Source of the DNA: a virus
Virus record (IMG/VR): IMGVR_UViG_3300042516_002999
Coordinates: 1-51,579 of that record
Length of the DNA: 51,579 nt
Strand: one strand, 5' to 3'
The stretch's first letter is position 1. Every line of letters begins with the position of its first letter. Positions 2,511-27,320 of the stretch are shown here, one piece after another. Under the pieces are notes generated by a model. That model did not search any database. It saw only the letters and a list, made by a program, of their open reading frames with translations, and had not been told where the DNA came from. The translations under genes and the position numbers were made by a program.

Positions 2511-3239
2511 ATGTATTCTCCAAGAATATACACATATAAAATTACCTTTGAAGAGGTTCCTTATTACTATTATGGAATACACGAAGAAAAAGTGTATGAT
2601 GAGGAATATTGGGGTTCTCCTATAACAAACAAATGGTGTTGGGAACTCTATACGCCAAAGAAACAGATATTAGAAACTTTTAGTAGTCGTGAGGATGCTT
2701 CTAAAATTGAGAGAAGATTGATAAAACCAGTTTATAATACTGATAAATGGTGTTTAAACGCAAATTGTGGCGGATTTTTTTCATTAGATACTTGTAGTAA
2801 AGCGGGAAAAATTGGAGGTAGTGTTACTGGAAAAAAACACCGTGAAAATAATACAGGAATATTTTCACTCACATCCGAACAAAGAAGTAAATTTGGAAAA
2901 ATGGGTGGAATTGTAAATGTGGAAACGGGACATATTCAACAGTTGGGCAAAAAAACATTAAGAGAAAATATTGAAAAGAGAAAAGGTATATTCGCATATA
3001 ATGCGGAGCAGAAAAGTGAAGTTGGAAGAAAAGGTGGAGAAAAATCGTATCTTTTAAAAAAAGGTTGTTTTTCTTTAACTGAAGAAGAAAGAAAAGAGGT
3101 CTCAAAAAAAGCAGGTAAAAAAGTTGCGGCACAAAGATGGAAATGTCTTGTGACTGGACATATATCAACTCCAGGTGGATTATCAAACTACCAAAATTAT
3201 AGAGGTATTGATACCTCTTTACGAATTAGAATTAACTAA
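2511..3239 (+). CDS. GIY-YIG homing-endonuclease-like protein with NUMOD-type repeats
   Basis: 242 residues. The N-terminal 75 fit a GIY-YIG nuclease: YTYKI at 7-11, YYYYGIH at 18-24, YWGS at 33-36, and the helix with the likely catalytic Glu (IERRLIKPVYN) at 66-76. A GIY-YIG enzyme cuts DNA next to a recognition site; free-standing phage versions spread by gene conversion. From about residue 97 the protein is basic and contains four short repeats ending GKIGG, GKMGG, GRKGG and AGKK, like the NUMOD DNA-binding segments of homing nucleases. It has its own late promoter and terminator-bounded position, and interrupts a series of closely packed genes. It is intact, with no stop or frameshift. 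Confidence 0.8.
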   Translation: MYSPRIYTYKITFEEVPYYYYGIHEEKVYDEEYWGSPITNKWCWELYTPKKQILETFSSREDASKIERRLIKPVYNTDKWCLNANCGGFFSLDTCSKAGKIGGSVTGKKHRENNTGIFSLTSEQRSKFGKMGGIVNVETGHIQQLGKKTLRENIEKRKGIFAYNAEQKSEVGRKGGEKSYLLKKGCFSLTEEERKEVSKKAGKKVAAQRWKCLVTGHISTPGGLSNYQNYRGIDTSLRIRIN

Positions 3240-3255: not shown

Positions 3256-3465
3256 ATGAAAAAAAGTTATGATGAAAATGCTTTCTATATTGAGCAAAAA
3301 AGTTGGGGCACCTGGCAATCACATTATCCTGATGGAAAAGGTATTATCACATCACTAACTGAAGAAGAGTGCATCAGGGCTACAAGATATTACCTTAAAG
3401 GGTTGCAAGAAGGTTGGAGTGATGATATAATCACATATGAAGGAGAAGTTGGAGGAAAACTATGA
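3256..3465 (+). CDS. Small conserved cyanophage protein
   Basis: 69 residues starting MKKSYDENAFYIEQ. A WGTWQSHYPDGKG segment and a helical part (LTEEECIRATRYYLKGLQEGW) suggest a small alpha/beta fold. A TATAAA string at 3244-3249 just upstream could act as a promoter. It overlaps the next gene by four bases. Function is unknown. Confidence 0.6.
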   Translation: MKKSYDENAFYIEQKSWGTWQSHYPDGKGIITSLTEEECIRATRYYLKGLQEGWSDDIITYEGEVGGKL

Positions 3466-23003: not shown

Positions 23004-23032
23004 TTGACATCTAGGCACACAAGTCTTATAGT
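23004..23032 (+). promoter_or_regulatory. Consensus host-type (sigma-70) promoter
   Basis: TTGACA (23004-23009), 17-base spacer, TATAGT (23027-23032). It stands 27 bases before the ATG at 23059 and after a strong terminator, so it should start the last early operon. Confidence 0.8.
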
Positions 23033-23058: not shown

Positions 23059-23232
23059 ATGTCCGTAGCATACAGTCAAGCACAGAAGCAGCGTTATAGG
23101 ATTACTCTGGATCTATCAGTGTTCGGTGACTTCGACCCGCATCAGATTGACTGGGAGAAGTTATTCAAGCTAGAACCTGCAGAGAAGTGTGATGCTTACG
23201 TTGAAGACCTAAGTACACCTGATAGATGGTAA
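23059..23232 (+). CDS. Small conserved cyanophage protein
   Basis: 57 residues: MSVAYSQAQKQRYRITLDLS, then VFGDFDPHQIDWEKLFKLEP and a tail VEDLSTPDRW. It is closely similar in my memory to a short protein in many cyanomyoviruses. AGGAG lies seven bases upstream and a consensus promoter precedes it, so strong early expression is likely. Function is unknown. Confidence 0.72.
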   Translation: MSVAYSQAQKQRYRITLDLSVFGDFDPHQIDWEKLFKLEPAEKCDAYVEDLSTPDRW

Positions 23233-23266
23233 TTTGGTAGCAATTTATACCAAATAGTGGGTTTTT

Positions 23267-23315
23267 ATTTTGTTAACATAAAGCATAAATAATCGGGTCT
23301 TTATGTTAACAAAAT
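23267..23315 (+). repeat. 17-bp perfect inverted repeat with a late-promoter box in its loop
   Basis: ATTTTGTTAACATAAAG (23267-23283) and CTTTATGTTAACAAAAT (23299-23315) are exact reverse complements, each centred on GTTAAC. The 15-base loop starts with CATAAATA. The right arm runs into the ATG at 23314. This may be a protein operator or a hairpin that hides the start codon. Confidence 0.85.
23284..23291 (+). promoter_or_regulatory. Possible T4-type late promoter inside the inverted repeat
   Basis: CATAAATA matches the late box and lies 23 bases before the ATG at 23314. Its placement between the two arms suggests that access to it could be controlled. Confidence 0.45.
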
Positions 23316-23490
23316 GAGAACACTAAAATATAAGCATTTGGGCGATATGAGGATTATACGTGTTGCCCAATTAACCACCGCTATCCTACCCCAACTGCAA
23401 GACGTTATGCAACAGTTAGAGGAGAACGGTGAGGATAGTCGTGAGGTGATCTTACAGGTCCTCAGTGACATTCAGGATCGCATCAGATAA
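23314..23490 (+). CDS. Small hypothetical protein
   Basis: 58 residues: MRTLKYKHLGDMRIIRVAQL then helices (LPQLQDVMQQLEENGEDSRE and VILQVLSDIQDRI). It is a small helical protein with a basic N-terminus that could bind DNA, perhaps the inverted repeat its ATG overlaps; that is speculation. The stop TAA is part of repeat copy 18. Confidence 0.6.
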   Translation: MRTLKYKHLGDMRIIRVAQLTTAILPQLQDVMQQLEENGEDSREVILQVLSDIQDRIR

Positions 23491-23530
23491 AATAGCTCAC
23501 CTCCAAAGTGTCCCAGTAATGTAGGGGGGA
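23485..23530 (+). repeat. Dispersed intergenic repeat, copy 18 (leader type)
   Basis: GATAAAATAGCTCACC, TCCAAAGTGTCCC, AGTAATGTAGGGGGG. GTGACA (23465-23470) lies 17 bases before TAAAAT (23488-23493). ATG directly followed by TAG lies at 23519-23524. GTGTCCC (23508-23514) can pair with GGGACAC (23527-23533). The gene starts at 23568. Confidence 0.9.
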
Positions 23531-26918: not shown

Positions 26919-27320
26919 ATGCCTTTACAAAGGGTAAGTCAGGGATTTAAAGATATTAGTATGTCATTTCAGAGCAATCCTCTGACGAATGACCTGATTG
27001 CCCTTAAAAATGAAAACGCAATTGCTCGCTCTATTCGTAATATTGTGTTTACTTTACCTGGCGAAAAATTTTTTAATGATAACTTTGGTTCTAGAATTAG
27101 TGGTTCTCTTTTTGAGAACTTAGATAGTTCTTCAGCTCTCGTTATAAAAGATGAAATTGAGAATTCAATTCAAAACTATGAGCCAAGAGTTTCATTAATA
27201 GATGTTCAAGTGAACCCCGATTTTGACAACAGTGCTTTTGATGTGATCATAACCTATAGAATTGTTGGTATAGATGTTCCAGCGCAACAATTACAATTCG
27301 TTCTGCAACCTACTAGGTAA
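26919..27320 (+). CDS. gp25: gp25, baseplate wedge subunit
   Basis: 133 residues, matching T4 gp25 (132). It contains DISMSFQSNPLTNDLIALKN, then AIARSIRNIVFTLPGEKFFN with the conserved GxxxFN-GS pattern, and ISLIDVQV-like strands at the end (RVSLIDVQVNPDF). gp25 carries the conserved EPR motif, here ENYEPRVS-like at about 93-97 (YEPRV), which joins wedge proteins to the sheath. It acts in the baseplate wedge with gp6 and gp53. The stop TAA abuts the gp6 ATG. Confidence 0.9.
   Translation: MPLQRVSQGFKDISMSFQSNPLTNDLIALKNENAIARSIRNIVFTLPGEKFFNDNFGSRISGSLFENLDSSSALVIKDEIENSIQNYEPRVSLIDVQVNPDFDNSAFDVIITYRIVGIDVPAQQLQFVLQPTR

Follow-up and report, generated by a model that had tools for sequence, protein, structure and literature searches.

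In bacteriophage T4, an operator for the product of I-TevI overlaps the late promoter of the gene, whose start region is hidden by an RNA structure when it is transcribed early or at middle times, according to the parts of the account that treat this gene (PMC2988022). A related arrangement is outlined for T4 genes e, soc and 49 as well as I-TevI, where the start is hidden in early RNA and the late RNA lacks the 5' arm (PMC3014915). Late-release hairpins are also attributed to free-standing homing endonucleases, namely Aeh1 mobE and T4 segB, in the pertinent sections of the former source (PMC2988022).

Here, we describe a candidate for such an element in front of a gene encoding 58 amino acids (aa) in a T4-like cyanophage. 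Like I-TevI as presented in those sections, it combines a late promoter and a putative operator for the gene's own product with an RNA structure that would hide the start. It differs in that the box lies between two mirror-image candidate sites, with the arms that contain them also forming the predicted hairpin, and in that the product is a cyanophage protein of 58 aa without a nuclease domain. With T4 genes e, soc and 49 it shares the predicted hiding of the start in early RNA and a late RNA without 5' arm, whereas the arms of the T4 hairpins are not described as operators in the relevant part of the source (PMC3014915). The likeness to mobE and segB, as far as the sections on them go, lies in a mobile-type gene under a hairpin and a late promoter, with HNH relatives at the locus; most alleles found here, however, carry no HNH part. 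The principle is already known from T4, and what is new is the protein family together with a natural swap of specificity. A search of open-licence PMC papers by title and beginning of the abstract, covering cyanophage late promoters, homing-endonuclease hairpins and domesticated repressors, found no description of the element.

The stretch of DNA analysed, which we call the window, is a record of 51,579 bases that is assigned to a T4-like cyanophage by its baseplate-wedge genes and its nearest matches to Synechococcus phages. The element, the 58-aa gene and the upstream gene with its promoter lie on its plus strand. The first-pass annotation had reported a perfect 17-bp inverted repeat around a late-promoter box, and this is borne out: the left arm ATTTTGTTAACATAAAG (23267–23283) and the right arm CTTTATGTTAACAAAAT (23299–23315) are complementary at 17/17 positions, each contains GTTAAC, and they are separated by a gap of 15 nt. 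The loop holds the box CATAAATA at 23284–23291, 22 nt before the ATG (23314–23316), whose first two bases end the right arm. Candidate operator site 1, the 14-mer TTTTGTTAACATAA, occupies 23268–23281, and candidate operator site 2 occupies 23301–23314. When G-U pairs are allowed, the arms grow to 23 bp (23261–23283 and 23299–23321), giving a predicted RNA stem-loop from 23261 to 23321 whose extended stem includes two G-U pairs. The annotation had also stated that the window holds no other copy. This is correct for the exact sequence, as the 14-mer matches exactly at the two arms only, but not for the layout, since the same arrangement in other letters occurs at 2424–2497 before a homing-endonuclease-like gene.

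Among the perfect inverted repeats of the window whose loops do not exceed 40 nt, this is the longest; first-order Markov controls (n = 10) reach 10–12 bp. RNA folding z-scores amount to −8.1 and −7.4 for segments of 151 and 71 nt, respectively, and 0/200 shuffles fold equally well. Controls and z-scores together rule out a chance origin of the repeat. Two further candidates were rejected, and a third lacks support. An intrinsic terminator does not apply: the terminator scan is empty at the hairpin, and the stem is AT-rich and has no T run. Concerning a repeated genomic regulatory motif, judged by exact matches, 10 of 12 records, namely 10/10 with the short form of the gene, have the site solely as the arm pair, while the remaining two, both HNH-fused, have none. 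A transposon end is not supported, given that the same upstream gene is found in 35 of 40 relatives.

This upstream gene (23059–23232) encodes 57 aa ending in STPDRW and is preceded by a sigma-70-like promoter, TTGACA-17-TATAGT (23004–23032), which is a consensus match only. The scan found no terminator-like site between this promoter and the hairpin, and read-through RNA is therefore expected. Before the ATG of the 58-aa gene there is no Shine-Dalgarno-like sequence. The interval that separates the upstream gene from the hairpin contains a small inverted repeat, ATTTGGTA / TACCAAAT (23232–23255), of which several relatives show traces.

The late promoter of cyanophages is given as NATAAATA in the part of the source that concerns it (PMC2984593). 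ATAAATA occurs in the window in 12 copies on the plus strand and one on the minus strand, and stands 17–28 nt before five gene starts, including those at 26919 and 41253 with matches to baseplate-wedge families. A dinucleotide shuffle leads to an expectation of 20.8 copies, above the 13 observed, and hence the argument for a late box rests on placement and strand rather than on copy number.

Relatives were collected from IMG/VR by a protein scan (41 loci) and a profile scan (61 loci). Of the latter, one is cut by a contig end, 51 encode the short form and nine are HNH-fused. A hairpin stands directly before the ATG in 51/51 short-form loci, and 9/9 HNH-fused loci have an imperfect one. Removal of duplicates left 33 counted short forms plus L196, that is, 34 distinct upstream regions, and seven HNH-fused forms; the truncated duplicates L131 and L133 (below 50 aa) and the contig-cut L039/L201 were left out of the 33, as was L196, which the search expression did not match. 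The relatives sit at one locus, because 35/40 have the same small upstream gene (the exceptions being L033, L035, L118, L136, and L137); the same downstream gene follows in 31/39. Isolate S-SM2 has the upstream gene but neither the cassette nor the repeat. Among isolated phages, the 58-aa protein of the window has no match and that of L014 chance matches only, and 112 pattern stretches in bacterial and archaeal genomes included no relative of the gene.

The first-pass annotation had tied its proposal to conservation of both arms, and both are indeed retained, with compensating substitutions, by each intact short-form relative found in IMG/VR. Each arm forms a near-palindromic site TTxTGnTAnCAxAA, in which 5 to 7 of 7 positions are symmetric. 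Variation in the 14-mer TTTTGnTAnCATAA and in its mirror copy is confined to the two n positions; the exceptions are L202 and L205, which differ at one more position, and L196, which has a double change. In the 33 short forms, the core reads GTTAAC (16), GATAGC with GCTATC (15), GCTAGC (1) or GATATC (1), and the two arms are complementary in each. Core pairing is Watson-Crick in 460/462 cells, with two mismatches and not a single G-U. Across 19 aligned rows, 99.4% of the cells pair and 5/17 pairs vary on both sides; the covariation score is 0.246 versus 0.077 in shuffled rows (0/500 shuffles as high) and drops to at most 0.036 once the partners are slid by 1–3 columns. A mirror asymmetry, with TTTTG on the outer and TTATG on the inner side, is seen in 31/33 short forms.

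The distance from arm start to arm start is 33 (18 loci), 34 (14) or 44 bp (1) in the short forms and 44 bp in 7/7 HNH-fused forms, such that the classes differ by 10–11 bp, one turn of B-DNA. The single short form with 44-bp spacing, L202, has a loop resembling those of the HNH-fused forms, and the 44-bp class may thus go back to one event. The loops of the 33 short forms contain TAAATA (26), CAAATA (3) or neither (4), while 0.3% of shuffled loops contain TAAATA. Where AAATA is present (29/33), the late box is 22–24 nt from the ATG; AAATA is missing in the remaining four and in L196.

The arms follow the protein. Arm type and residues 11–14 of the gene product correspond without exception in 33/33 short forms: GTTAAC arms accompany the motif E/D-M-x-I in 16/16 loci, and the other arms accompany x-G-x-M in 17/17. 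The window belongs to the former group, with D-M-R-I encoded by codons 11–14 (23344–23355). Inclusion of L196 brings the GTTAAC loci with M at residue 12 to 16 of 17. At the level of half-sites, the base beside the TG is T in 64/64 cases with E/D-M-x-I, and A or C in 68/68 cases with x-G-x-M. The corrected normalised mutual information with arm type amounts to 0.80, 0.98, and 0.98 at residues 11, 12, and 14, respectively. It does not exceed 0.26 at any site in codons 1–10, which separate the motif from the arm, or 0.18 beyond codon 20. Codons 15–20 show intermediate values, about 0.5 at most, which would be expected from hitchhiking or from secondary contacts.

Arm types are interleaved on the trees of both flanks. 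On the tree of downstream DNA, in which 13/36 inner branches are starred and several end branches are long, the arm type changes 10 times, and 6/6 pairs that are independent and lie on well-supported branches are concordant (p = 0.031); on the tree of the upstream flank it changes 12 times, and 4/4 available independent pairs agree (p = 0.125). L040 and L128 have identical loops, two substitutions per arm and different residue motifs. The weak association of codons 1–10, the interleaving of arm types and the pair L040/L128 do not fit linkage alone, but fit recognition of the arms by the protein. Because the arms co-vary with residues 11–14, the product of the same gene is the likely binder.

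The short gene (P0001, 23314–23490) is under purifying selection, with a median dN/dS of 0.24 (402 pairs, 32 sequences). In relatives, HNH ORFs that occupy this locus are homologous in their C-terminal part to its product, which itself has no nuclease or HNH catalytic domain. An AlphaFold monomer model of moderate quality (pLDDT 75, pTM 0.47) contains two helices and is weakest at residues 1–10; it matched no known DNA-binding fold and no PDB entry at E 0.001, and a further structure comparison gave weak histone-fold-like rows at Z 4.9, below the meaningful level. A sequence search of the PDB returned weak, partial helical matches only (best E 0.0077). Among 28 members no convincing Pfam family was found; the scattered weak hits to PADR1_N (8.9e-5, 5/28) and HAMP (0.0028, 1/28) we read as helical similarity. 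The pattern IRVPxxV...DSxEVI presumably resembles that of ribbon-helix-helix proteins. The Pfam model RHH_1 matched none of the 28 members and nothing in one relative of 205 kb, and in the moderate monomer model two helices are present while the strand is not formed.

Seven distinct alleles at the same locus carry an HNH-like part, in which Cys and D-H residues are conserved, fused in frame before the same C-terminal part. One such relative reaches E 0.00073 and 20.1 bits against PF01844, under the cut-off of 21.4 bits; the structure model of the fused form was poor (pLDDT 51) and was not used. The HNH part appears or disappears 7 times across the downstream tree and 6 times across the upstream one. 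The arms of these alleles are imperfect and obey the base-residue rule loosely. The HNH-fused alleles might cleave a homing site. A tentative and on the whole unlikely extension sees in the 58-aa gene a nuclease-less allele that descends from an HNH homing endonuclease, or gave rise to one, and that persists as a repressor, selfish or domesticated. Arms and residues 11–14 would then act as a lock and key that diversify, and the short protein may, in addition, bind and guard the site that HNH alleles of other specificity would use for invading the locus. In L130 (1437–1499), an HNH-fused allele, the loop contains no late box but a TATAAT-like sequence, and the right arm by itself forms a hairpin.

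In read-through RNA, the predicted stem buries the start region, at −25.7 kcal/mol for 71 nt of the window and a median of −27.5 kcal/mol over 33 read-through leaders. T4 late transcripts start about 6 nt after the late box. By this analogy, late RNA of the 58-aa gene would start at 23297 and hold the right arm only, as the box lies in the loop in the T4 manner. The window RNA 23297–23340 folds at −1.1 kcal/mol, and the 33 RNAs from the right arm on have a median of −2.4 kcal/mol.

For comparison, the gene at 2511–3239 of the window matches the homing-endonuclease family phrog_314 and is preceded by an 11-bp inverted repeat around TATAAATA within 2424–2510. Its IMG/VR relatives were evaluated at 69 of 72 loci (L278, L304, and L308 have incomplete starts). 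As at the 58-aa gene, an ATAAATA box lies between inverted arms before the ATG: it is present in 57/58 distinct upstream regions, and arms of at least 9 bp enclose it in 43 of the 57, compared to 6/285 shuffled controls. Unlike those of the 58-aa gene, these arms vary freely (33 distinct right arms among 43, with a gap of 46–67 nt), the loop usually holds a T-run or terminator-like stretch, and there is no sign of an operator. A hairpin for which pairing suffices thus drifts in sequence; the constancy of the one at the 58-aa gene is as an added operator role predicts. Before the gene at 2511–3239, an GGAGAGGA/TCCTCTCC hairpin is found inside the loop.

We favour, with a probability of roughly 0.6, a self-control in two layers of the I-TevI kind, DNA operator and RNA hairpin, exerted by a new protein family. 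On the DNA, the 58-aa product, most likely as dimers, would bind both mirror-orientation sites flanking the late box, with residues 11–14 choosing the base beside the TG, and would thereby shut its own late promoter. On the RNA, transcripts reading through from upstream would contain both arms and form a stem of 17–23 bp over the AUG. The gene would therefore be silent early, since the stem buries the AUG, whereas late transcripts, starting in the loop without the left arm, would be translatable. The first-pass annotation had offered operator and RNA structure as alternatives; the comparative evidence favours both at once, and from it we infer the dimer, the repression and the translational block. 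Within this reading, the link between protein and arms has the stronger support.

Each layer might act without the other. An operator alone, with mirror-image sites for the gene's product and the RNA hairpin as a by-product, would account for all protein-linked evidence, i.e., co-variation, half-site rule, and spacing, and for L202 and L205, in which one RNA pair is broken while the right arm of L202 becomes a perfect 14-bp palindrome. It leaves unexplained, however, that pairing in the window continues to the AUG and beyond with G-U pairs of the RNA type, and that the mirror asymmetry is so widely kept; we regard it as unlikely. Still less probable is an RNA switch alone, a late-release hairpin of the T4 gene e or mobE type with protein-free arms. 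The stem over the AUG, the late box in the loop, the upstream promoter with no intervening terminator-like site and the same layout at the phrog_314-type genes of related phages would all be expected of it, but arms that are nearly fixed and palindromic, lack G-U in the core, keep helical-turn spacing and track protein residues would not, given that the phrog_314-type arms are free. Pairing of the right arm with codons 11–15 in late RNA is rare, too, with no pair in 30/33.

We give little credence to two further explanations. Inverted repeats can become perfect through template-switch correction without selection on pairing, and the association of arms and protein might be hitchhiking, with hairpin and N-terminal codons passed on as a linked block whose arms are made identical in this way. 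Arm and motif lie within about 90 bp, and the locus recombines, as the 10–12 arm-type changes on the flank trees indicate; yet the codons between arm and motif barely associate with arm type, and loop alleles are common to both arm types (CCCCCCTAAATACCCCCA in 3 and 3 loci, ACGCTAAATATCCAGGA in 1 and 1). Alternatively, the HNH endonuclease may use the repeat for recognition or homing, and the short forms would then carry an unoccupied target. This would be in agreement with the in-frame HNH fusions at the same locus and their repeated gain or loss, but neither perfection nor a match to the product of the short form is required of a mere target, and S-SM2, which has no cassette, has no repeat either.

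If the two-layer reading holds, a single stretch of 61 bp would combine the roles of a two-site DNA operator and an RNA timing switch, and the DNA-binding part of a homing endonuclease would have survived without its nuclease. L040 and L128 would then constitute a natural specificity-swap experiment, and an uncharacterised family would become testable with short oligonucleotides. It would further suggest that mobile genes of cyanophages commonly have late-release hairpins of the kind known from T4.

Some variants of the locus deserve mention in their own right. In L118, upstream of the gene at 3373 (minus strand), the left arm and the late box are tandemly duplicated, resulting in three operator-like copies. 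The hairpin of L196, upstream of position 286, shows the further double change TTTCG / CGAAA, and its protein has K at residue 12 together with GTTAAC arms. Behind the cassette, a conserved stretch like AAAGTGTcccAGTaaTGTAgg occurs at 23505–23525 of the window and at about 1450–1475 of L214, and it is also found in the cassette-less S-SM2.
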